DNA from: a virus
Strand: one strand, 5' to 3'
Virus record (IMG/VR): IMGVR_UViG_3300049893_000902
Span: 1 to 22,768 of that record
Length of the DNA stretch: 22,768 bases
The notes beneath the pieces were generated by a model, which saw nothing but the letters and a program-made list of their open reading frames with translations, did no database searches and was not told the origin of the DNA. The translations under genes and the position numbers were made by a program. Positions 3,083 to 22,553 of this stretch are shown one piece after another; within the stretch, counting starts at the first letter, position 1; the number at the start of each line of letters is the position of its first letter.

Positions 3083-3356
3083 GTGCGCTTATTAGTCCGT
3101 TCGCAGATTGGTCTCCGGTGCGGGTGCTCGATTACTGCATCGCGCGACAAGCGGCGGCGCTGCTCAAACCACCCGACGCGATGCGGGGCCACGAGGTCTC
3201 CACATGGGGCAACTGCACGGATCACGCACAGCCTACATCACTGGATACAAAGCCGGCATCCGCGCCATCGAAGCAGAGCTATCTGGGCAGGCGCAGCCGG
3301 TGGCATGGTGCGACCCGGCTAGCGCGTCAACGCATCCCACCGCCACTCGGCGCTGA
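3079..3356 (+). pseudogene. small phage gene apparently split by a 1-base deletion
   Basis: ATG 3079 overlaps the previous stop. Its frame reads sensibly for about 50 residues (MSALISPFADWSPVRVLDYC, then EVSTWGNCTDHAQ) and then degrades into a Ser/Pro/Arg-rich sequence antisense to the spanin gene. In the -1 frame a sensible sequence picks up exactly there (AYITGYKAGIRAIEAEL, then VAWCDP) and stops at 3354-3356. Joining the frames around 3229-3233 gives a protein of about 92 aa that ends before the convergent late operon, with a 'GYxAGIxAxE' helix common in small phage proteins. No slippery site is visible at the junction. A one-base loss or sequencing error is likeliest. Alternatives are two overlapping genes, the second starting at ATG 3204 (50 aa). 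Confidence 0.5.
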
Positions 3357-3920
3357 GGCCGGCGGCGCGTTCAGCGTTGCGGCCTCGGCCCAGTCGAGCC
3401 CGCGCTGCCTCCGCGCTCGGTACTCGTCCAGTAGTACCGCACCCTCGCTGCCCAAGTCGCCGCCTGCTGCAAGGCTGCCTGCGAGGTCTGCGACCACTCC
3501 TGCACCCTCGTCGAGTAGCTGCTCGCAGCGGGCGAGTCTGGCTCCGTCAGCGCCGCCGGTATCGGCGGGACGCTCGGCGGCGGCACGGCGAGCGGCTGCG
3601 AGGTCGTCGCGCAGCTGGACAACCACAGCGCCGCGGCGCACATCAGCAGCCTTGCGGTCGGCATCTGCCTTCTCCTTGGCCTGCATGGCCTCGAGGTAGC
3701 GGAACTCGCCGCGGGAGTCGAGCTGCGCTCGAGCGGCGCTGGTGGCGGCGTTCGCCGCCTTCTGCCGTTCGCCCTCGGCGATGAACGGCGCGGCGCCCGC
3801 CTTTCGCCCCGCCTCGAAGGTCTCTTCCTTGGCGTACTCGTGCCACCGCCACGCGCCCCACAGCAGCACGGCGATGCCGCCGACGACGAGGATGCGGGGA
3901 AGGAGGGCGGCGCCGATCAC
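3327..3920 (-). CDS. Rz: inner-membrane spanin subunit (Rz-like)
   Basis: A 197-aa protein from GTG 3920. It has an N-terminal membrane anchor (about residues 5-23, LLPRILVVGGIAVLLWGAW), then a long charged, Ala-rich helical part with predicted coiled coil (about residues 30-130), and a less ordered Gly/Pro/Ala C-terminus. This is the layout of an i-spanin: the anchor sits in the inner membrane and the coiled coil spans the periplasm. The identification rests mainly on the lipoprotein gene nested in another frame (3371-3664), the hallmark of Rz/Rz1 pairs, and on its place after the endolysin. After endolysin action the pair fuses inner and outer membranes. It is the last gene of the late operon in the window. 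Confidence 0.85.
   Translation of the reverse strand: MIGAALLPRILVVGGIAVLLWGAWRWHEYAKEETFEAGRKAGAAPFIAEGERQKAANAATSAARAQLDSRGEFRYLEAMQAKEKADADRKAADVRRGAVVVQLRDDLAAARRAAAERPADTGGADGARLARCEQLLDEGAGVVADLAGSLAAGGDLGSEGAVLLDEYRARRQRGLDWAEAATLNAPPASAPSGGGMR
3348..3379. terminator. possible bidirectional terminator hairpin
   Basis: CGCTGA (3351-3356) and TCAGCG (3371-3376) pair perfectly around a GC-rich 14-base loop. The stem extends outward by two G-T pairs and a C-G pair in the + strand RNA (3348-3379). It lies exactly where the + operon ends (stop at 3354-3356) and the - operon ends (3327). There is no clear T-tract on either side, so this is a suggestion based on position and pairing. Confidence 0.3.
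3371..3664 (-). CDS. Rz1: outer-membrane spanin lipoprotein (Rz1-like), nested in Rz
   Basis: This 97-aa frame lies wholly inside the Rz-like gene in another - strand frame. ATG 3664 is preceded by GGAGAAGG. The product has a basic start (MPTAR), a hydrophobic stretch (LLMCAAALWL) and a lipobox ending LSSC, with the lipidated cysteine at residue 18. It is followed by ATT and a proline-rich segment (VPPPSVPPIP). Signal peptidase II cleavage, an Asp-free +2 position and the Pro-rich mature part fit Rz1 outer-membrane lipoproteins. The mature protein is about 80 aa, longer than the 40 of lambda Rz1 but within the range of other nested spanins. It would bind the C-terminus of the Rz-like partner. 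Confidence 0.88.
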   Translation of the reverse strand: MPTARLLMCAAALWLSSCATTSQPLAVPPPSVPPIPAALTEPDSPAASSYSTRVQEWSQTSQAALQQAATWAARVRYYWTSTERGGSAGSTGPRPQR

Positions 3921-4183: not shown

Positions 4184-4258
4184 TGGTTGCGGGCCTCGGA
4201 GTCGAACCGAGTATCTCCGGCTTATGAGACCGGCGGATTGCCGTCTTCCACGCCCACG
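4184..4258 (-). tRNA. tRNA-Met (CAT anticodon), CCA encoded
   Basis: On the - strand a full cloverleaf can be drawn. The acceptor arms are 4258-4252 and 4194-4188 (six pairs including one G-U, with a C-A at the end). The D stem is GGA/TCC (4249-4247, 4237-4235) with GG in the loop. The anticodon stem is CCGGT/GCCGG (4233-4229, 4221-4217) around loop CTCATAA. There is a 5-base variable loop, and a perfect 5-bp T stem (CTCGG/CCGAG) around TTCGACT. The discriminator A is at 4187 and CCA at 4186-4184. The anticodon CAT (4226-4224) indicates elongator Met, or Ile if the C is modified to lysidine. Its 5' half overlaps the end of the zinc-ribbon gene by 37 bases, including the anticodon loop. Confidence 0.92.
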
Positions 4259-4440: not shown

Positions 4441-4916
4441 GGGTAGAACACCCTGCGCCCGCTCGCCGGCGGCACCGTCTGCAGGTGGCACCAGCCCTTC
4501 GTCGCCGCGGGGTGCTCCATCCATAGCCCGAGGTCTTCGAGCGCACGCTGCCCGGCGTCGCTCAGCAGCCACTCGTCGAGCACGCCGTCATCGTCCGAGA
4601 CATCGATCGCCTGCCCGGTCATGTGCTTACTGTTCTTCGCCGCGCGCGGGGTCTGCGCGTTGACCGATGCCGGCCGCCACCCGCTGTTCACGCAGCCGAA
4701 CCCGTTGTCGGACTTGCTCGCGCACACGCCCTCCGCGGCCGCGCGCTCGAGCAGCCGATTCGCCAAGTCGACCGTGCGCTCGGCATTGGCGCGGATGTCG
4801 GTGCTGAGCTGCAGCGCGTAGTGCGCGTCGCGGTGCATCCAGTAGTCGCGCATGGTGATGTATGGCTCGTCTGCAGCGAGCGCCGCAGCGACTGGATCGG
4901 ATACGGCAGCCGTCAT
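4437..4916 (-). CDS. endolysin, M15-type L-Ala-D-Glu/D-Ala peptidase
   Basis: A 159-aa protein from ATG 4916, which overlaps the stop of the mini-gene before it. The upstream 12 codons of the open frame are unlikely to be used. The C-terminal half carries the peptidase M15 (VanY/DUF882-like) zinc site: SGWRPASVN (78-86), SKHMTGQAIDVSD (96-108; His 98 and Asp 105 as ligands) and GWCHLQ (141-146; His 144). A nearby acidic residue, such as Glu 134 of LWMEH, could be the catalytic base. The N-terminal 60 residues are helical without a signal peptide, so release needs a holin. It would cut peptide stems of peptidoglycan. It sits between holin candidates and spanins, as expected for a lysis cassette. 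Confidence 0.88.
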   Translation of the reverse strand: MTAAVSDPVAAALAADEPYITMRDYWMHRDAHYALQLSTDIRANAERTVDLANRLLERAAAEGVCASKSDNGFGCVNSGWRPASVNAQTPRAAKNSKHMTGQAIDVSDDDGVLDEWLLSDAGQRALEDLGLWMEHPAATKGWCHLQTVPPASGRRVFYP

Positions 4917-4999
4917 GAGTGCACCTTCCCGTCGATCACCTTCAGCCCGCACTGGCGGGCGAGTTCAGCCCACGGCACCGGCGCGGCGAGCGGCGGCAT
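4913..4999 (-). CDS. 28-aa mini-gene coupled to the endolysin
   Basis: ATG 4999 overlaps the TGA of the exported protein before it, and the TGA at 4915-4913 overlaps the ATG of the endolysin. A GGAG lies about 9 bases upstream. The peptide begins MPPLAAPVPW and ends GKVHS, with a helix-like middle (AELARQCGLKVID). Both borders follow the ATGA pattern used by its neighbours, and no other frame covers this stretch, which is why I call it real. It may be a functional micropeptide or only a translational bridge that carries ribosomes to the endolysin start. Confidence 0.5.
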   Translation of the reverse strand: MPPLAAPVPWAELARQCGLKVIDGKVHS

Positions 5000-6912: not shown

Positions 6913-7079
6913 GGGTTCTCGCGCGGGCCGCCGCCACCGCCGCCCTGCACGAGCGTGGCCGCGATGGCCTCGATGCGGCCGGCGCCTTCGTTGCGCGCCT
7001 TGCGGTAGTTCGCACGCAGGGTCCACATGCGCGCGACGATGAGGCCGAGGAGGAGGCCGGAGAGGAATGCGGTTGCCAT
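6909..7079 (-). CDS. 56-aa membrane-anchored protein
   Basis: This frame is short but well supported: ATG 7079 overlaps the stop of the YfiM-like gene, AAGGAG lies about 6 bases upstream, and its TGA (6911-6909) overlaps the GTG of the next gene. The product begins MATAFLSGLLLGLIVARMW (one membrane helix) and continues with a basic/helical part (LRANYRKARNEGAGRIEAIA) and a glycine run near the end (QGGGGGGPRENP). An N-terminal anchor with a short cytoplasmic helix is a common layout for small phage lysis accessory proteins. Function is unknown. Confidence 0.68.
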   Translation of the reverse strand: MATAFLSGLLLGLIVARMWTLRANYRKARNEGAGRIEAIAATLVQGGGGGGPRENP

Positions 7080-7468
7080 CAGAACTCCTTCACGTAGCGG
7101 AAGAGGCCGACGCCAGCAGCGCAGCCCAGGGCATCCATTTTCAGGTCATTGCGGGAGAACAGTCCATGCCTGAAGCCGGGCGGCGCTTTGTCCCGGTCGC
7201 GCAGCTCCTTCATCACCCCGACGCCGAGGCAGCCGAAGAACACGGGCCACGGGTGCTTCGGCGCGACGTAGGAGCCGAGCATGCCCATGCCTGCGCTGTA
7301 GCCGAAGTGCGCGCTGGCACCGCCCCAGCCGTCGGGCGGCATGTTGCGCAGCGCCGGCGGCGGCTCGGGCTTGTCGTATGCGCGGGCATCCAGTGCTGGC
7401 AGGATCGCCAGTGTTGCACAGGCGAGCCAAATGGCATATCGTGCGGCTGTACTTTGGAGGTAGATCAT
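7079..7468 (-). CDS. YfiM-like (DUF2279-type) exported protein
   Basis: ATG 7468 gives 129 aa with an N-terminal signal-like segment (AARYAIWLACATLAILPALDARA, cleavage near residue 30). The extra 25 codons upstream are antisense to the lipoprotein gene and low in sense. The rest shows the pattern of the YfiM/DUF2279 group: AHFGYSAGMGML, then FFGCLGVGVMKELRDRD, then FSRNDLKMDALGCAAGVGL, i.e. 'HF..S', 'G..KE..D' and 'Dl..D..G...G'. There is no lipobox Cys. Its cellular role is not established. It is the first gene after the tail-tip gene and starts the membrane/lysis cluster. Its ATG and the ATG of the + strand lipoprotein share one CATG. Confidence 0.72.
   Translation of the reverse strand: MIYLQSTAARYAIWLACATLAILPALDARAYDKPEPPPALRNMPPDGWGGASAHFGYSAGMGMLGSYVAPKHPWPVFFGCLGVGVMKELRDRDKAPPGFRHGLFSRNDLKMDALGCAAGVGLFRYVKEF
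7414..7442 (+). promoter_or_regulatory. possible promoter for the lipoprotein gene
   Basis: TTGCAC (7414-7419) and TATCGT (7437-7442) are separated by exactly 17 bases and lie 25 bases before the lipoprotein ATG. The matches to the sigma-70 consensus are 3/6 and 4/6, so this is weak evidence, but the local sequence is less GC-rich than its surroundings. It lies within the coding region of the YfiM-like gene on the other strand. Confidence 0.3.
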
Positions 7469-7643
7469 GCGTGCGATTCTCTTGGCGGTGGTGGTAGTGC
7501 TGGTGGGGTGTGGAGGCGGAGGAGATGACGGATGCCGCGTCATAGATGGCGTGGCCTATGGCCCGAACGGTGTTCCGGCTTGCATCAAACGAGCAGACGG
7601 TGCGGCCTCTACATGCCAGTGCCTCACCGCTTCAGAACAGTGA
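7467..7643 (+). CDS. cysteine-rich lipoprotein on the opposite strand (moron candidate)
   Basis: ATG 7467 has a near-ideal GGAGG at 7456-7460 with a 6-base spacer. The 58-aa product is a clear lipoprotein precursor: MR, hydrophobic AILLAVVVVL, lipobox LVGC with the lipidated cysteine at residue 15, then a GGGGDD linker. The mature 44-aa protein has four further cysteines (23, 39, 50, 52; CRVIDG, PACIK, TCQCLT) and ends TASEQ. It is the only + strand gene inside the late operon. Its 3' end overlaps the end of the J-like gene by 20 bases. Asp at +5/+6 rather than +2 suggests outer-membrane sorting. By position and type it resembles lysogenic-conversion or superinfection-exclusion lipoproteins (as lambda Bor or T5 Llp), but I see no sequence match. 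Confidence 0.78.
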   Translation: MRAILLAVVVVLVGCGGGGDDGCRVIDGVAYGPNGVPACIKRADGAASTCQCLTASEQ

Positions 7644-10600
7644 TTCTGAGATTGCCGCCGCCGGAGTAATCCGTCGTGGTGCCGGCTGCGGTGTTGATGT
7701 ACGCCGTCAGGCAAAAGTACAAGGTCGAGCCGCTCGACACATCGACAACCTCGTTGTGCGCATACCGCTTGTGGCTTGATGTTGCGTCTGTGTGTTGCAG
7801 GTCGGCTGATAGGGACGAGAAGTCACCGCTCGTCATTGCCGAACTAAACTGCTTGTTCGCATCGAGCCACACACTACCGGCGCCAGCAGATTTGGTCCCA
7901 TAAATTAGCGAGGCGAGTTCGACAGTGACCGTTGCCCCCGTGTTGTTGGTCCAGCTAATTTGAAGAAAACGCTCGACCCGGTACGGGAATCCGGCGCTCG
8001 CCGTGAAAGACTTCGACAGCGTCGTGCTCGTGTTTTGCACGACGTCCGTCGCTGCGTTCGGGACAATGTGCTCTGTATTCGCCGGCGTCCGCAGTTCGCA
8101 CGTCACAGAGTCCCAGATGATGTCGCCGAGCCAGCGGCCCCCCGAGGCCCCGGACCATGAGCACATGAGGTAGAGATAGACGCCGTAGATTCGCTCGCCG
8201 CTGTTGACGGCGCACAGGCCCTTCACGGTCTGCCACGCACCGGTCTGCGTCTTGTCGATCACCACCGCTGTATCACGCTGTGTGGTGAACGCGCTGTTTG
8301 TGAATAGCCTCGCGAAGAGCTGCGGCGAGCCGCCGCTCGTGTTCGACACCACGTAGGCGTCGACGCCGACCTCGAAGAACGACCCCGCCGGCAGCGGCGC
8401 AGAGGTGAACGCAGCCTGAATCCATTGCAGGCCAACGTCGTTGCTCGACGACGCGTTCGTCATGCGCACCGCGTTCGGTCCGGTGCGTGTGGTCGTGGTT
8501 TCCTTGGTGATCGTGCCTGCAGGGTTGTTCCATGCCGTCCACGAATCAGGCTCCGTCTGCCCAAGCACCCAGTTCGTGAACTGCCCGTTCAGTGAGTACG
8601 CGTCGGCGAAGCTGATCGGCCGGTTCGTTGAACCGCTTGTCTTGGCAACGGCAAGCAGTTCGTCGATGCTTGGCATCGCAGCGTCAGCCATCTCGAGGCG
8701 CTGGAAGCGCCGATCCCAGCGCGTCTTGTTGCCCGTGCTGCTGTAGAACTGGAATGTACGGTGCGCAACTCGCGCAGCGTCACTCATCCACTTGAAATCC
8801 GCCCCGTTGGCTACACGCTGCCCAGTCACGGTGTCATAGAGCCCGCTCATGCTGGGGCTCGGTGGCGTCGTCCCGAAGCTCGCCGGGAAGATCCAGCCTT
8901 CGCCCAGGTACAGCCGCCCTGGCACGAGCTGTGAGCGCGCAATGGAAAAGAAGTACGGGTTGTCTACCTGTGCGCCGGTGGCAATGTCTGCGACACGCAG
9001 ATTGGAGAACGACGGCCCGGGACCGAAGAAGAAAGTCCCTGCAGTGCCAGTCACCGTGTGCAGGTAGAACGCAGTCACGAACCTGTACGGCTGCGTCGCA
9101 TCAATCGGCACGTAGTCCGTCACCCAACCACCATCACCTGCGCCGGCAGCGTCGGTGATAACGTCCTCGCTCGACGTGGCCTCCCAGTAGACCGCCTGCT
9201 TGCCATCCGGCCCCGCGGCCATGATGACTATGTCTTCCGTTGCCGGATCTCCGGCGCGGACGAATCTATTGCCTCCACTGGTCCCCTGGTCTGCGCTCGT
9301 ACCCGTGACCGTCCAGCTACCGGTGTCGAGCAGGTTGCCGCGCGGCGCTGGCGACAGCGCCTCGAACTTGATGTTGGAGACCTCGGCGCCGACGCCGTAG
9401 AGCGCCACTGCTGCAGATAACGTCAGCCCGGGCGGCACCGCAAGCTGGCGCAGCAGCGTCGACCCCTTGCGATAGATCACCGCACTGCCGGTGTAGTCGA
9501 TCGAGTACCCATCGGCAGCCGCGTGCGTGGTCACATTGTCTGCACGCAGCGATGCCAGCTCGTAGATGTCGATCGTGTTGGCGGCCGCGCCGTTGATCCC
9601 GTAGTCGAACGAGGTGTAGTCGGTACTTGCGGACGGGTTGAGTTTCAGCCCGACGTGCCAATCGGTGCCCGCCACCGGCACCACCCACGACACCCGGCAC
9701 GCCCCTTGGATCGGCGACTTGCTGTACACCCCGGCGTTCCACGCGCCGCCGTTGGCGATCTTGACCACGCGCCCCGGCGTGACGAGCAGAGAGCCGGCGG
9801 TGCCGTGGGCAACCAGCACCGTCGACGCGAAGGTGTTCGGGTCCTGCGTCACAGCCACCGTGTGGCTCAGAAACGCGGGCGGCCCATACTGCCCTAGAGA
9901 ATTCAGCGCGACGGCCTCAATGACGACAGGATCTCCCTCGCGCACCCCCGGCAGGAACGCAGAGGTTTCTCCGCCCGGCACCTCGACGCGCAGCCACTCA
10001 GTGCCGCGCGGCGTGCGGTACATGACGACGATACGGCCCGCATCTGTGATGTAGGCGTCGGTGACGGCAGCCCACGTCACTTTGATGCGCGCCTGCCAAG
10101 AGCCGTCGGCTGTGAGGATGCCTGTCGTCAGGCCGCTCGATGCACTCAGGCTGCCGAGCTGCGCCACGACCCACGGACTCGGCAACCCGGTGTTCGGCGT
10201 CGCATCTGCGCTAGCCTGGTCGGCGAGGTCCAGAGCGGCAGAGTCATCCTCCTGGCACGTGAGCACCACCGCTTGCGGCGCGTCCTGCCAGTCTGTCACG
10301 CGGTAGTTCTTGAGCGTCAGCCCGTACTCGGTGCTGCTGATCCGCACGCGGTCGCCGCGCTGGATCGGCCATGCCTTGAGCGTCGCGGGGAACCGGATGA
10401 CCTGCCCGTTGCGCCCGGTCTCGACGCGGATGCGGCTGAGGTTGCGGGCGCGAACCTTCGAGTCGGTGAACGGCAGCGCGAGGTCTTCCCAGTGCTCCTG
10501 CCCGTCCTCGGTCACCAGCGTCGAGTTGACGTAGTTGTCGAATTCCTGCGGCACACTCTTGCCGGCCGGGATGTAGGTGCCGCGCACGCTGTTGATGAGC

Positions 10601-12234
10601 TGGTCGAGCGGCGTGTCGGCCTGCACGATCTCGATCTGACCGGCGAGGTCGTTGTCGCCGAGGTCCATGATCGGCGATGTCCAGACGCCGGCGATCAGTT
10701 CCCACTGCGCGCCGTAGACCGCTTCTCCGGCCATCGACTCGGCAAGGTCGTCCAGTGTTGCCTCCTTGCCGTCGCCCTCGGTGACGATGACGCCATTGGC
10801 CTTGTACGGCGCGTAATCGTGCCAGGTGCAGGTGTGCGTGCCGCTGCCGGTCGACGTGATGTCGATCGCGGTGCCGGCGTAGGCGTTAGCGACGCTCGTC
10901 GCGAGGCGGTAGTTCTTCGCGTCGGCATCCTTGATCACGTAGTACGTGGTCGCGGTGGCGAGCGGTGCAGGCAGCGTGCCGGTGGTCGTGAATCGCAGGC
11001 CGTCTCCGACCGCGTATGGCTGGTCGGTCGTGAAGATGATCGTATTCGCCGTCGCGCTTGCGGTTACCGTGTCGCTCTTGGCCTGCACCGCCGCGCTGTG
11101 GCGGAAATACGGCGAATCACCGCCGCACACGTTGGCAGCGACGATCGTGAACGCGTCGTTGATGTCAGACGGGTCGTTGTCGTATCCCCACTCGGCTTGC
11201 AGGTAGTCGCGGGTTGCCAGGGCAGCGTTGTCGCTCCACTCCCACGTCGTCGAGTCGGTTGCGCGATGCGATCCGCTGCCGCCGTTCGTCGAGTCCTTAC
11301 GCGGGTCGTATACCTTGCGGCCGCTGATGTCGGCCACGATGCCGGGCGGCGCCCCTTGAAAGCGCTGATCCTCGAGGTCGAGCGTCAGCACGATATAGCA
11401 CTTGTTCAGCAGTCGGTCGGTGCTCGTCCACTGGCTCGGCACGACGCTGTTTAGGTAGGTGTCTACCGTCTGTGTGCTGGTGCCGAGGTGCTTCTGCACA
11501 CGCACCGTGTTCAGGTTGGCCTGCACCGTGTAGTCGACGACCGCGTTCGCAGGGCCGTTGATCGTCAGGTTACCGTTCGTCAGCGTGATCGAGCCGGCAA
11601 CGTTGGTCGTGCTGTAGTTGTCACCACTGCCCTGCTGCGTATACGCCTGCAGCACAGTGACCACCGGGCGGGCAACGGTCACACTGCCGCCGCCCTCAAT
11701 CACGGCCTGTTGCGTGTCGACGCGGGTCGAGAAAAACTCGCCACCCGTCGGGAACCCACTCCCATCGAGCGGCCCGAGCGGCACGCCGTCGATGTATAGC
11801 TCGTGGATCGCCTGGCACTCGTGGTCGGCGAAGACAATCACCAGGTGCTTAAGCGCATCCGGCCGGGTGTACGTGGTGCCGTTCTCCCGGTAGCCTGTCT
11901 TGTCGGTCGTGAAGATGGCGTGTACGTCACCGCCGGTGAGCGCGCGACCGACCACGATCCGCCAGGGCGGCAGCGCCTGCAGCTCCGTGATGTTGCGATC
12001 CTGCAGGCTGGCGTTGTACTCAGCCCGCGCGCGGGCCTGCGCCTTGCGGGCTTTCTTGCGGGCGCGGGAGGCGCCGTAGACGTAGAGGCCGACGAGGATG
12101 ATCGTCTTGACGGAGATGACCGCCGTGCCGATCGCGATGCTCGACGACAGAATGAAACTGATCGTCCCCGGGTCCGCCCACGCCGCAGCACCGGCGCCGA
12201 ACAATGCACTGCCGAGCAGCAGGCTGCGGATCAT
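7624..12234 (-). CDS. J-like tail tip / host-specificity protein
   Basis: A 1536-aa protein from ATG 12234, which overlaps the previous stop; the open frame extends 64 codons upstream but only inside the previous gene. The N-terminus is hydrophobic (about residues 1-55), then basic (RARKKARKAQARARAEY), followed by LPPWRIVVGRALTGGDVHAI near residue 90, typical of phage tail proteins of this kind. Residues about 515-690 (LGDNDLAGQIEIVQADTPLD and VRISSTEYGLTLKNYRVTDW) match the central hub region of J-type proteins. From about residue 966, and again from about 1216, beta-rich stretches resemble carbohydrate-binding jelly rolls. Residues 1395-1536 form a separate C-terminal domain. It should cap the tail tip and recognise the host. 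The last seven codons and stop overlap the lipoprotein gene. Confidence 0.88.
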   Translation of the reverse strand: MIRSLLLGSALFGAGAAAWADPGTISFILSSSIAIGTAVISVKTIILVGLYVYGASRARKKARKAQARARAEYNASLQDRNITELQALPPWRIVVGRALTGGDVHAIFTTDKTGYRENGTTYTRPDALKHLVIVFADHECQAIHELYIDGVPLGPLDGSGFPTGGEFFSTRVDTQQAVIEGGGSVTVARPVVTVLQAYTQQGSGDNYSTTNVAGSITLTNGNLTINGPANAVVDYTVQANLNTVRVQKHLGTSTQTVDTYLNSVVPSQWTSTDRLLNKCYIVLTLDLEDQRFQGAPPGIVADISGRKVYDPRKDSTNGGSGSHRATDSTTWEWSDNAALATRDYLQAEWGYDNDPSDINDAFTIVAANVCGGDSPYFRHSAAVQAKSDTVTASATANTIIFTTDQPYAVGDGLRFTTTGTLPAPLATATTYYVIKDADAKNYRLATSVANAYAGTAIDITSTGSGTHTCTWHDYAPYKANGVIVTEGDGKEATLDDLAESMAGEAVYGAQWELIAGVWTSPIMDLGDNDLAGQIEIVQADTPLDQLINSVRGTYIPAGKSVPQEFDNYVNSTLVTEDGQEHWEDLALPFTDSKVRARNLSRIRVETGRNGQVIRFPATLKAWPIQRGDRVRISSTEYGLTLKNYRVTDWQDAPQAVVLTCQEDDSAALDLADQASADATPNTGLPSPWVVAQLGSLSASSGLTTGILTADGSWQARIKVTWAAVTDAYITDAGRIVVMYRTPRGTEWLRVEVPGGETSAFLPGVREGDPVVIEAVALNSLGQYGPPAFLSHTVAVTQDPNTFASTVLVAHGTAGSLLVTPGRVVKIANGGAWNAGVYSKSPIQGACRVSWVVPVAGTDWHVGLKLNPSASTDYTSFDYGINGAAANTIDIYELASLRADNVTTHAAADGYSIDYTGSAVIYRKGSTLLRQLAVPPGLTLSAAVALYGVGAEVSNIKFEALSPAPRGNLLDTGSWTVTGTSADQGTSGGNRFVRAGDPATEDIVIMAAGPDGKQAVYWEATSSEDVITDAAGAGDGGWVTDYVPIDATQPYRFVTAFYLHTVTGTAGTFFFGPGPSFSNLRVADIATGAQVDNPYFFSIARSQLVPGRLYLGEGWIFPASFGTTPPSPSMSGLYDTVTGQRVANGADFKWMSDAARVAHRTFQFYSSTGNKTRWDRRFQRLEMADAAMPSIDELLAVAKTSGSTNRPISFADAYSLNGQFTNWVLGQTEPDSWTAWNNPAGTITKETTTTRTGPNAVRMTNASSSNDVGLQWIQAAFTSAPLPAGSFFEVGVDAYVVSNTSGGSPQLFARLFTNSAFTTQRDTAVVIDKTQTGAWQTVKGLCAVNSGERIYGVYLYLMCSWSGASGGRWLGDIIWDSVTCELRTPANTEHIVPNAATDVVQNTSTTLSKSFTASAGFPYRVERFLQISWTNNTGATVTVELASLIYGTKSAGAGSVWLDANKQFSSAMTSGDFSSLSADLQHTDATSSHKRYAHNEVVDVSSGSTLYFCLTAYINTAAGTTTDYSGGGNLRITVLKR
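7655..7691 (+). terminator. possible terminator hairpin after the lipoprotein gene
   Basis: CCGCCGCCGG (7655-7664) pairs with CCGGCTGCGG (7682-7691) over 9 of 10 positions, with a 17-base loop, starting 12 bases after the lipoprotein stop. Only a weak T-rich stretch (TGTTGATGT) follows. A smaller perfect hairpin, TCAGAA/TTCTGA (7632-7649), spans the stop codon itself. Both lie in the J-like coding sequence on the other strand, so chance pairing in GC-rich DNA is possible. Confidence 0.25.
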
Positions 12235-12740
12235 GCGCGCACCGCCCACGCGTGCGAGCAGTCGGACGTCGGCCACCAGATCGCGCCGCCGCCCTCGCGC
12301 AGAAACACCGCGACCGTGGCCGGTACCAGCGCAGCGCTCTCGCCGCAGCAGATGCCGAGCGTGTAGCCGGGCCGCTGCTTGCCTAGCCGCTGGAGCGGCA
12401 GCGCCACGAGGTCGCCCATCTTGCACTGTGCGGGCTCGATAGGGGCTCGCCCGAGGCGCTGCGTCACGGCCGCCGGCAGCCCGCCGAGCCAGCGCAACAG
12501 GCGCCGCGCGGACCTGGCGCCGTCGAGCGGTGGCAGGTTGTCGAGCGGATCACGCCCCTCTACCGCGCGGACCCATCCGGCTGCGAAGTGGCAGCAGTTG
12601 TACTCGGCCCAGTCGAACGGGCGGGCGAGCGCACGGACCAGGTAGGCGTCGAGCCGTGAACGCAGCACCGCGACGGCGACGCTGCTCCGCACGATCTCTG
12701 GATCGCAGGCCGAGTCGATCGTGATCGTTTGCGCGAGCAT
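12231..12740 (-). CDS. tail assembly NlpC/P60-like protein (DUF6950 type)
   Basis: ATG 12740 overlaps the previous stop (a TTG one codon earlier is unlikely), giving 169 aa. Residues 41-51, PFDWAEYNCCH, followed by FAAGWVRAVEGRDP, match the 'F.W...DC..F...W' core of the DUF6950/NlpC-like group, with Cys 49 or 50 as the likely nucleophile. Further signatures are MGDLVALP and LGICCGESAAL, and the closing SDCSHAWAV. A catalytic His in the usual place before the GI(C/Y) strand is not evident, so activity is uncertain. Its position directly before the J-like gene corresponds to lambda gpK, which acts in tail-tip assembly and possibly wall entry. Confidence 0.78.
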   Translation of the reverse strand: MLAQTITIDSACDPEIVRSSVAVAVLRSRLDAYLVRALARPFDWAEYNCCHFAAGWVRAVEGRDPLDNLPPLDGARSARRLLRWLGGLPAAVTQRLGRAPIEPAQCKMGDLVALPLQRLGKQRPGYTLGICCGESAALVPATVAVFLREGGGAIWWPTSDCSHAWAVRA

Positions 12741-18870: not shown

Positions 18871-18894
18871 ATCAGGTGATCGATCAGGTGATCG
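18871..18894. repeat. perfect 12-bp tandem duplication over the capsid stop codon
   Basis: ATCAGGTGATCG occurs twice in direct tandem (18871-18882 and 18883-18894). On the - strand the unit encodes Ser-Ile-Thr-stop in the capsid frame, so the stop codon itself is duplicated, giving an in-frame back-up stop 12 bases downstream (18874-18872). Confidence 0.85.
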
Positions 18895-20920
18895 AGCTGG
18901 CGAGGCTGAACGCGCCGGCGTAGCGCAGGCCGCAGTCCATCGTGTAGATCGCCCGGATGCCGATGATGGCAGCGGTGAAGCCGGCGTAGGGGTTCACGTC
19001 GACCTCGAGCACGCCCCATTCCGGCACGAGGACCTGCGACCAGTCGCCGAACAGCATCGTTGCCGACGCCATCTGGTTGGACGCCATCGCCGGGAAGCCC
19101 TGCATCGAGCCGTCCCACACGTTGCCTTCCCACAGCGGCGAGGCGGTCGACGTGTACTTGACGCGCTGAATGCACAGCGAAGCCACCGCGTGCGTGGTGG
19201 CGTACCCGCCACGCTGCGGCATCACGTTCGCGCCGGCGACGTCGGTCTGGAACTCCAGGATGTCGTCGAACGCCAGCGAGGTGCCAGTCACAGACCCGAT
19301 GCCCGCCGTGTTGGTGATGCCCGTCGGCTGGCCGCTCGCGCCGCTGCCGGTGAGCACCGCCGTGTCGACGGCCAGCGCGGTGACGGTCGACAGGTCGGAC
19401 GTGACGATACCCTCGATCGCCGGATTGCTCTGCAGCATGAGCAGGCGCGACACCTCGGTGTAGGCGCCGACCGTCTTCGGCGTCAGCGAGAGCTGGCCGA
19501 AGGTCTGCGTGATCTCGGAGATCGTCGAGGCTTCGTTCGCCAGCCACGTCGCGGAGCCGCTTGCGGTCTGCCGCGGGATGGTCACGTTGTCGCGCATGCC
19601 GGGCAGCGGGGTCGCACCGAGGCGGAACGCGACAGCGCGGTTACGCAGCATCTCGACCAGGTAGCCGCCGGCCGCCGCCGTGCCGACCGTCAGGTCTCGC
19701 TGTTGGTAGCCGGCGAAGCCACGCGCGTGCGGGCCGACCATCATCGACGCGCCCGGAGGCACGACGATCTGCCGCTCCTGCACCTCGGTCGGTACGAAGA
19801 ACTTCTTCGGGTCGACCGCCTCGCGCCCGAGGCGCTTGGCGATGGTCTGCGTGCACTCCAGTTCAAAGCCGGCCTTCGACCAGTTGCCGTCGGCGATCGC
19901 GAGCGCCGCGCGGAAGATGGAGAAGCGCTGCGTCTCCTTGTCGGTCAGGCCGAGGCGCGCCGGTTCGTCGGTGCGGTGGCTCTTCGAGCGCTCCTTCACG
20001 ACCTTCAGGATTTCGTCGGCGACCTGTTCCGTCGACAGGCCGTCGCCGACCCAGGAATCGCGGAACGTGGCGTCCAGCTTGTTCGCCTCGCACAGCGTCT
20101 CGATCGTGCGAACACGGGCCTTCTCGAGGTCGAGTGCGGTCGGGCCTTGGCGCGCTTGCGCGGCGGCGGCTTGCGTACCCTTGTCTTCCGCGACTGCGCC
20201 CGCGGCGGCTTGAGTGTCAGCCATGTTGGCTTTCCTTTCGGTGGATGCCGCGGGTGCGGCGGGTTGGGAAACTTGGTGCTGTCGGCCCACGCCGACGCCG
20301 TTGTCTGCCGGAACCGTGACGAACGAGTTCTCGAGCGGTTCCCAGTCGACGACTCGGTAGACGGGCGGCTCGTCGTCCGCCCGGTTCTTAATGGGGCCTG
20401 CAATCTCGTCCAGTTCGCGGCGCAGGTCGCGCCAGCTGCCGCGCTTGGCGTCTCGGTGCGACTCGCGCTCGCCGATCAGTCGCTCGAACGTTGCGCCGTC
20501 GATCTCGCGCTCGACGACCTTGCCGGCCTTGGTCTTGCTCTGCTCGACGATCTTGTGGATCTGGTAGCCGACGCTCGCCTTCGACAGCACCTTGCTCTCG
20601 ATCAGCGCGATGGTGTCTCGCGTTGCTTGGGTCGCTGCGGGGATGATGACCTGCCCACGAAGCACCCCGTCGGAGTCCGCGCGGACGCTGCCCGGGACGT
20701 GCCGGCCGCGCAGTTCGTTCCAGTCGTGGTTATAGAGGACCGGGCCTCCGTCGCCATCGTTGAGGCGGCCGAGGCGGACTCCCTTCATGTCCAGCACCTC
20801 GATCCCCCACCAGCGTTCGTATGGCACTTCGCTCGCGAACGCCATCTCGACGGTGAGGTCGCCGCCCTCTTTCTCGCGACGCATCGTTGCGCCGCGTAGA
20901 TCGAATGCTCGCTCCGCCAT
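18884..20920 (-). CDS. prohead protease fused to HK97-fold major capsid protein
   Basis: I chose ATG 20920 (678 aa), with GAGGTGA upstream, over a TTG at 20935. Residues 1-205 are a prohead serine protease of the HK97/U35 kind: VLYNHDW with His 65, VLSKASVGY with Ser 116, and PLENSFVTVPAD with Glu 197 as a likely acid. A linker (205-235) leads to a helical delta-like scaffold region (about 250-385). Then comes the capsid domain of the HK97 family: GGYLVEMLRNRAVAFRLGA, SATWLANEASTISEITQTFG, VGAYTEVSRLLMLQSNPAIE and GSGASGQPTGI. In lambda and HK97 the protease and capsid are separate genes; here they are one frame. A strong internal ribosome site before Met 233 may make capsid alone. Confidence 0.92.
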   Translation of the reverse strand: MAERAFDLRGATMRREKEGGDLTVEMAFASEVPYERWWGIEVLDMKGVRLGRLNDGDGGPVLYNHDWNELRGRHVPGSVRADSDGVLRGQVIIPAATQATRDTIALIESKVLSKASVGYQIHKIVEQSKTKAGKVVEREIDGATFERLIGERESHRDAKRGSWRDLRRELDEIAGPIKNRADDEPPVYRVVDWEPLENSFVTVPADNGVGVGRQHQVSQPAAPAASTERKANMADTQAAAGAVAEDKGTQAAAAQARQGPTALDLEKARVRTIETLCEANKLDATFRDSWVGDGLSTEQVADEILKVVKERSKSHRTDEPARLGLTDKETQRFSIFRAALAIADGNWSKAGFELECTQTIAKRLGREAVDPKKFFVPTEVQERQIVVPPGASMMVGPHARGFAGYQQRDLTVGTAAAGGYLVEMLRNRAVAFRLGATPLPGMRDNVTIPRQTASGSATWLANEASTISEITQTFGQLSLTPKTVGAYTEVSRLLMLQSNPAIEGIVTSDLSTVTALAVDTAVLTGSGASGQPTGITNTAGIGSVTGTSLAFDDILEFQTDVAGANVMPQRGGYATTHAVASLCIQRVKYTSTASPLWEGNVWDGSMQGFPAMASNQMASATMLFGDWSQVLVPEWGVLEVDVNPYAGFTAAIIGIRAIYTMDCGLRYAGAFSLASSIT
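20222..20238 (-). promoter_or_regulatory. internal ribosome binding site for capsid-only product
   Basis: On the - strand GAAAGGAAAG precedes the ATG at 20224-20222, with AGGA at 20236-20233 and an 8-base spacer. The ATG is in frame with the fusion (Met 233) and lies exactly in the linker between protease and capsid parts. It would give a 446-aa protein starting MADTQAAAGAV, holding scaffold plus capsid domains. Confidence 0.65.
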
Positions 20921-20924
20921 CACT

Positions 20925-22553
20925 TCACCTCGCAATCGAAACGACGCGCCGCGGTGGCTCGTCGGTGTTGTCTTCCGGCTCGGTCTCCGGCGTGGCGCTG
21001 GCCGCGCCGGCCGGCGCCGTCTCCGCCGCGGTCACCGTGGTATCGACCTCGATGTCGGCCTCCTCGAACATCTCCAGTTCGTTGCGCCGTGTCTCGATGA
21101 TGTCCTCGATGTCGCGGCCGTCGGCCGTCTGCGCGATGACGTCGGTCGTGGTCGTCAATCCGGCCTTGATCGCCTCCTTGTAGGCGGCAACTTCCTTTGT
21201 CGGGTCGACCCAGTTCCAGCCGCGGAGCTTGAACTTGACCGCGAGGTAGCGCTCCGGCTCGGACGCATGCGCGTCGATCGGCACGTTCACCGCTCGCGCC
21301 ATCACGGCCAAGCGCAGCCACTCGCGATGCAGCGGCTCGCGGAATGAGCGAATCCACCACTGCTGCAACACGCGCCACGTGTCGCGATCATCGAGCAGCG
21401 ACAGGCGGCTCGACGAGTAGTTGCTCTGGCTGTAGTCGCGGCTCAGGCTTTCGTAGCTGACCCCGAGGCCGGCGCTGATCTCGCGCAGCATGTAGCGCAT
21501 GAACGGGTCGAGCGCGCTGTTCGGGCGGTTCGGGCTGTGGAACTTGAGGGACTGCCCGGCCTCCAGCTCCTGGATCATGAGCGGCTCGATCGCCATCGTC
21601 TGTCGGCCGGTGTCGTCCGTCTCGGTCGCGAGTGAGTTCGGCGCTCCGACACCGTCGAGCCCTGGCGGCGGGCCGTCCGTGGGGTCCTGCTCGATCGAGG
21701 CGAACGTCATCGCTTGCGCGCGCGCCGCCATCAATTCGCTGCCGGTGTACTCGTTGGTGTCGTCGAGGCGCGTCAGCACCGTGTGCATCCACGGCTCACC
21801 GCGCGTCTGCGGCCACCGCGTGATGACGCGCAGATGCCACAGGTCTTCGGCCGGCACGCGGCGTACCTGGTCGGTGCCGGACACGCGCCCACGGATGTCG
21901 CCGGGATGGCGGTCGCGAACCCACGCAGCGAGAGCGCGCCCGAACTGATCGACCTCGATCCCCATGCGCAGTTCGGCCGGCGTCGCGGCGAACGTGCCCG
22001 GGTCCATGAGCGTGTCGGCGATGCGCTCGGCCTCGATCAGTTCGAGGGCGAGCGGCACCTTGCTTTCGCCGAAGCGGTAGCGATGCAGACGGATGAAGAC
22101 CTCGCCAGCGTCGACGACCTGCCCGAGCGCGGCGCGCTCGAGGTCGAAGAAGTGGAGCGCACCGCCGGTATGGCACGAGCCCGGGCGCATCCATTCGCAC
22201 CATGCGCGCTCGATGCTTTCGTTCACAGACTTGTTCGGCTCACCGCGCACGCCCTTGACCTGAGATTGGATGCCGATGCCGCCGCCGATGACGTTGTTCA
22301 CGATGATGCTACGCGCGCGCTTGGCATAGCTCGCGTCGCGCACCATCTGACGGCTGCGTGCCCGCATCCGCGTTAGGTCGAGCGACAGTTCGGCGTCCGC
22401 GCTGGCGTTGCCGCTCGACCCGAATCCGGTAGTCGTGCGTGTGTCTCGCGCGTTGGCGTAGTTCCGCGTCGCAGTCGCTGGGCGGCGCTGCACGAGCTGC
22501 ATCCCAGCGGCTCGGACGAGCACGCGCTTCCACCAGGCGATGCGGTTAGGCAC
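20925..22553 (-). CDS. portal protein, lambda gpB family
   Basis: A 542-aa protein from GTG 22553, which overlaps the end of the gpW-like gene by 8 bases. It starts PNRIAWWKRVL and contains DLTRMRARSRQMVRDASYAK followed by IIVNNVIGGGIGIQSQVKG, then LGQVVDAGEVFIRLHRYRF, PAEDLWHLRV, and LGVSYESLSRDYSQSNYSSS with RLSLLDDRD. These are the typical signatures of lambda-type portals (Phage_portal_2). The C-terminal 45 residues are acidic and low in complexity (EEADIEVDTTVTAAETAP). Twelve copies form the ring at the head vertex through which DNA is packaged. It is followed after four bases by the protease-capsid gene. Confidence 0.93.
   Translation of the reverse strand: MPNRIAWWKRVLVRAAGMQLVQRRPATATRNYANARDTRTTTGFGSSGNASADAELSLDLTRMRARSRQMVRDASYAKRARSIIVNNVIGGGIGIQSQVKGVRGEPNKSVNESIERAWCEWMRPGSCHTGGALHFFDLERAALGQVVDAGEVFIRLHRYRFGESKVPLALELIEAERIADTLMDPGTFAATPAELRMGIEVDQFGRALAAWVRDRHPGDIRGRVSGTDQVRRVPAEDLWHLRVITRWPQTRGEPWMHTVLTRLDDTNEYTGSELMAARAQAMTFASIEQDPTDGPPPGLDGVGAPNSLATETDDTGRQTMAIEPLMIQELEAGQSLKFHSPNRPNSALDPFMRYMLREISAGLGVSYESLSRDYSQSNYSSSRLSLLDDRDTWRVLQQWWIRSFREPLHREWLRLAVMARAVNVPIDAHASEPERYLAVKFKLRGWNWVDPTKEVAAYKEAIKAGLTTTTDVIAQTADGRDIEDIIETRRNELEMFEEADIEVDTTVTAAETAPAGAASATPETEPEDNTDEPPRRVVSIAR

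Follow-up and report, generated by a model that had tools for sequence, protein, structure and literature searches.

The window analysed is an entire IMG/VR contig of 22,768 bases with a GC content of 66.5%. At its left end the + strand carries a RecE-like exonuclease gene plus neighbouring genes, and the - strand holds a late block encoding portal, capsid, tail tube, tape measure, distal tail, J-like fibre, YfiM-like, membrane, M15-peptidase-like and Rz/Rz1 proteins. The J-like tail fibre gene (7624..12426, - strand, 1600 aa) was assigned from PHROG 5616 (tail fiber, E-value 4.8e-47) and from phage matches. The Rz-like i-spanin (3327..3920, - strand) has an N-terminal TM segment and a charged helix, and nested within its gene in another frame lies an Rz1-like o-spanin (3371..3664, - strand) with a lipobox LSSC followed by a Pro-rich stretch and a match to PHROG 456 (Rz-like spanin, E-value 2e-4). 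Since the phage carries its own Rz/Rz1, its host is likely Gram-negative.

The YfiM-like gene (7079..7468, - strand) encodes a predicted secreted protein of 129 aa with a Sec-type signal peptide, which has relatives in three other IMG/VR records (L002, L003 and L005) and a weak lipoprotein match to PHROG 26616/29588 (E-values of about 2e-4 to 4e-4). The name given to it in the first-pass annotation is plausible, but we found no match to PF10043 (DUF2279) at E≤1. A relative of this protein in a Vibrio phage matched VanZ with an E-value of 0.08. As a side observation, the conserved Asp, His, Lys-Glu and Asp-Leu positions of the family are reminiscent of the Lipocone superfamily (PMC12419801), again with no match to Pfam DUF2279.

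Between the stop codon of the J-like gene (7624-7626) and the ATG of the YfiM-like gene (7468-7466) the late block leaves a gap of 155 nt (7469..7623), which is occupied by an ORF of 58 aa on the + strand (7467..7643; ATG 7467-7469, stop 7641-7643) whose 3’ end overlaps that of the J-like gene by 20 nt. Its translation is MRAILLAVVVVLVGCGGGGDDGCRVIDGVAYGPNGVPACIKRADGAASTCQCLTASEQ. An in-frame TAG at 7461-7463 makes this ATG the first possible start of the frame. The product fits the pattern of a bacterial lipoprotein processed by signal peptidase II, with a basic n-region, a hydrophobic h-region and a lipobox cysteine (MR-AILLAVVVV-LVGC), so that lipidation is predicted at Cys 15 after a signal peptide of residues 1-14. 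The gene start, the lipobox and the four further cysteines in a mature part of 44 aa (Cys 23, 39, 50 and 52) are all as first described, as is the Shine-Dalgarno-like GGAGG (7456..7460, + strand), which lies 6 nt before the ATG, within codons 3-5 of the opposite gene, and is part of a 6-nt match to the anti-Shine-Dalgarno sequence. The two divergent ATG codons do have a CATG in common (7466..7469), as had been pointed out, but this is less telling than it had seemed, because any ATG preceded by a C makes a divergent ATG.

To assess how often such an ORF is expected by chance, we used second-order Markov copies of the window, in which lipobox-containing ORFs that start with ATG and span 35 aa or more were expected 0.31 times per window, and 0.03 times when a Shine-Dalgarno match of at least 5 bases was also required. 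The probability that a random ATG starts an ORF with a lipobox and 40 aa or more was 0.0007. Two features of the ORF have little weight in this respect: its length alone is no evidence, because one in two random ATGs opens 40 codons or more in DNA this rich in GC, and the Shine-Dalgarno match is weak evidence, because 30% of the synonymous recodings of the opposite peptide MIYLQ yield a 6-nt match. Four extra cysteines in 43 residues would occur with a probability of 0.04 in random sequence with the same composition, but cysteines make up 11% here versus 0.5% in the genes of the phage. The codon score of the ORF is -0.27, versus +0.2 to +0.6 for phage genes, and its GC content by codon position (0.69/0.56/0.58) does not follow the GC3 bias of the phage (GC3 of 0.58 versus about 0.8). 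Such un-phage-like codon usage fits a recent acquisition, and also a non-coding frame.

We searched for the 58-aa protein in PHROGs, Pfam and NCBIfam, which gave no family match (no PHROG at E≤1; the best Pfam match was DUF7537, E-value 0.18), in phages, IMG/VR, GTDB genomes and the records of L002, L003 and L005, which gave no homologue, and in plasmids, which gave chance matches only. The comparison with phage proteins that had been proposed as a check of the gene was thus negative. Very weak matches to a lysozyme inhibitor and to LptM cover only the signal peptide. A search of IMG/VR with the degenerate DNA motif for YGPNGxPxC hit 33 places, none of them a lipoprotein. Separately, we noted that a frame of 17-35 residues, G[TI]RPGRSYGPNG[CS]PRCG, recurs across many unrelated IMG/VR contigs (L009-L041), perhaps as one repeated element or as contamination. 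The AlphaFold model of the protein was poor (pLDDT 61), and neither this model nor that of the YfiM-like protein was strong enough for a structure search.

The first-pass annotation had also suggested that the ORF is an autonomous unit, from a candidate -35/-10 pair spaced by 17 bases and a hairpin after the stop. The pair (TTGCAC-17-TATCGT, 7414..7442, + strand) is a weak promoter candidate that matches 7 of 12 positions and is not above chance, as roughly one in three random segments of 86 nt does as well; the best alternative pair upstream of the ORF reaches 8/12, as do 7% of such segments, and no sigma-70-type promoter was found near the ORF at 9/12. The hairpin 3’ of the stop has ordinary stability (z -0.8) and is not followed by a T run, so it is not borne out as a terminator, and scans of the locus for promoters, terminators and RNA families found nothing. 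The reading as an autonomous unit is therefore unsupported, and the promoter and terminator of their own that mark morons were not seen (with promoters scanned for the sigma-70 type only). A dip in GC content to 53% at 7420-7470, among the lowest 2.3% of windows, gives a slight hint. We found no evidence that the two genes are coupled at the CATG or that initiation at one start interferes with the other, as had been suggested: the two start codons sit on different mRNAs, which leaves antisense pairing or transcriptional interference as the sole possible links.

We then compared the junction of the fibre and YfiM-like genes in the three records with a relative of the YfiM-like gene. In L002, a distant phage, the fibre stop overlaps the YfiM-like start (GTATGA, 4941-4944), leaving no gap. 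In L003 (IMGVR_UViG_3300049847_000569), likewise distant, a gap of 475 nt separates the fibre stop (4501) from the YfiM-like ATG (4977) and holds a run of three small ORFs on the strand opposite to the two genes (4498-4978, - strand; 74 aa, about 44 aa and a predicted lipoprotein of 44 aa). The first encodes a soluble protein of 74 aa, has GAGGA upstream and shares a CATG (4976-4979) with the YfiM-like ATG; the last, MKYVIALWISLLAGCGGGDPLPDEHEAKLPPTTCKDIPRTVECL (beginning MKYVIALWISLLAGCGGG), ends against the fibre stop. The number of lipobox ORFs expected in this gap by chance is 0.0015. This cassette resembles our locus in its junction, its strand, a lipoprotein with a GCGGG linker and late cysteines, and the CATG shared with the YfiM-like ATG. 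It differs in that the partner at the CATG is the soluble ORF, with the lipoprotein further on, whereas in the window the partner is the lipoprotein ORF itself, and the alignment of the two lipoproteins is limited to the signal peptide and the GGG linker. In L005 the YfiM-like gene is placed elsewhere. Pattern and profile searches for further YfiM-like junctions returned the same three loci and no more (one match in a Cryobacterium genome was judged to be due to chance), and searches with the J-like and major tail proteins found no close relatives of the phage.

Through the empty junction of L002, the ORF appears as an extra gene between genes that are adjacent in a related phage. A junction that is empty in one phage and filled by different opposite-strand lipoproteins in two favours the pattern of a moron site, as far as can be read from three loci whose fibres are not close relatives. 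A bolder version, in which opposite-strand cassettes for envelope lipoproteins would land at the junction repeatedly, with the first start fused to the YfiM-like start as one CATG and antisense transcription keeping host-modifying and late genes apart, strikes us as improbable.

Together, the lipobox statistics, the empty junction of L002 and the different opposite-strand lipoprotein of L003 lead us to read the ORF as probably a real orphan moron lipoprotein. The opposite-strand lipoprotein of the first-pass annotation thus stands as the best reading, without the autonomous unit. We also counted in favour that the + strand carries the early RecE-like gene, and against it the missing homologue, the codon usage, the promoter at chance level, a mature part shorter than in Llp and Cor, and the poor AlphaFold model. 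The main alternative to a real gene is an open frame that arose by chance in spacer DNA that is not translated and separates the fibre gene from the YfiM/lysis genes. Such a chance frame would account for the codon usage and the missing homologue and would gain from the ease with which long frames and Shine-Dalgarno matches arise in this DNA; the lipobox probability per ATG, its rarity per window once a Shine-Dalgarno match is required, the location of the frame in the gap and nowhere else, and the lipoprotein analogue of L003 speak against such a frame, and we regard it as unlikely.

As to what a real product would do, small phage lipoproteins offer three comparisons. The first is Cor/Llp. 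In the genomes that we compared, T5 llp adjoins oad on the opposite strand and N15 cor lies downstream of the tail-tip fibre gene; cor cassettes follow the fibre cluster in T1, HK022, N15, ES18 and phi80 (PMC13164509), and mEpimmI encodes its Lpp, shown to exclude phages, inside the cluster of structural genes (PMC11893012). Llp, which contains an intramolecular disulfide, acts from the periplasm to jam FhuA (PMC9586334). Our ORF shares with these genes the small size, the lipobox, extra cysteines, the position beside a receptor-binding or tail-tip gene (here the J-like gene) and, with T5, the opposite strand. It differs in having a mature part of 44 aa with four extra cysteines, versus 62 aa with two, and in being convergent with the fibre gene and divergent from the YfiM-like gene. 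No sequence or profile match links them: PHROG 1119 did not detect the ORF, whereas Llp and Cor were recovered with that library at E-values of 1.1e-19 and 3.4e-32. The functional class that the first-pass annotation had suggested, that of Bor and Llp, is plausible by analogy, whereas membership in either family finds no support in PHROG 1119 or Pfam.

Lambda bor is likewise a small opposite-strand lipoprotein moron near late and lysis genes, but it follows Rz whereas the ORF follows the fibre gene and is shorter, and the ORF gave no Pfam match to the Bor family. This likeness bears on other roles for a real moron lipoprotein, namely serum or complement resistance as for Bor, a part in envelope stress, inhibition of the host's lysozyme, or action as a partner of the YfiM-like protein. 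They draw on the same gene-level evidence and on the very weak matches named above (lysozyme inhibitor, LptM), against which stand the missing Pfam match and the restriction of these matches to the signal peptide, and we consider such roles possible, if somewhat doubtful. The third comparison, with Rz1 o-spanins of the lysis cassette, was prompted by similar size, a lipobox and closeness to lysis genes. We rejected this role as extremely improbable, since the phage already has a nested, Pro-rich Rz1 in its Rz gene and has no need of another, and the ORF is on the opposite strand, is not nested in Rz, encodes few prolines and has no Rz partner.

Because known exclusion lipoproteins adjoin receptor-binding or J genes, we tentatively favour an outer-membrane moron lipoprotein that would serve superinfection exclusion, surface conversion or a like task directed at a receptor, as Cor and Llp work. 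The gene would have been inserted in reverse orientation between the tail-fibre and YfiM-like genes, and signal peptidase II would process its precursor to a lipidated protein of 44 residues. By the Lol rule, established in E. coli, a Gly at position +2 directs sorting to the outer membrane. The Gly at +2 of this product would accordingly place it there, its mature part lying in the periplasm and possibly kept compact by one or two disulfides. Acting on the envelope of the infected (or lysogenic) host, it may bind the phage’s own outer-membrane receptor from the periplasm and block superinfection or re-adsorption. This kind of gene is already known in phages; its sequence is new. If it is real, the small phage lipoproteins that alter the host envelope would gain a member of unrelated sequence, its fixed place in the genome, on the opposite strand behind the receptor-binding fibre, would be one where such genes can be sought without homology, and pairs of fibre and lipoprotein could be tested for receptor matching.

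Two further features of the contig were recorded. A tRNA-Met gene (CAT anticodon; 4184-4258, - strand) lies within the lysis region, flanked by the M15-peptidase-like gene and Rz, and a protein of 683 aa (18884-20935, - strand) has an N-terminus like a head maturation protease and the major capsid protein at its C-terminus, apparently as a fused protease-capsid.
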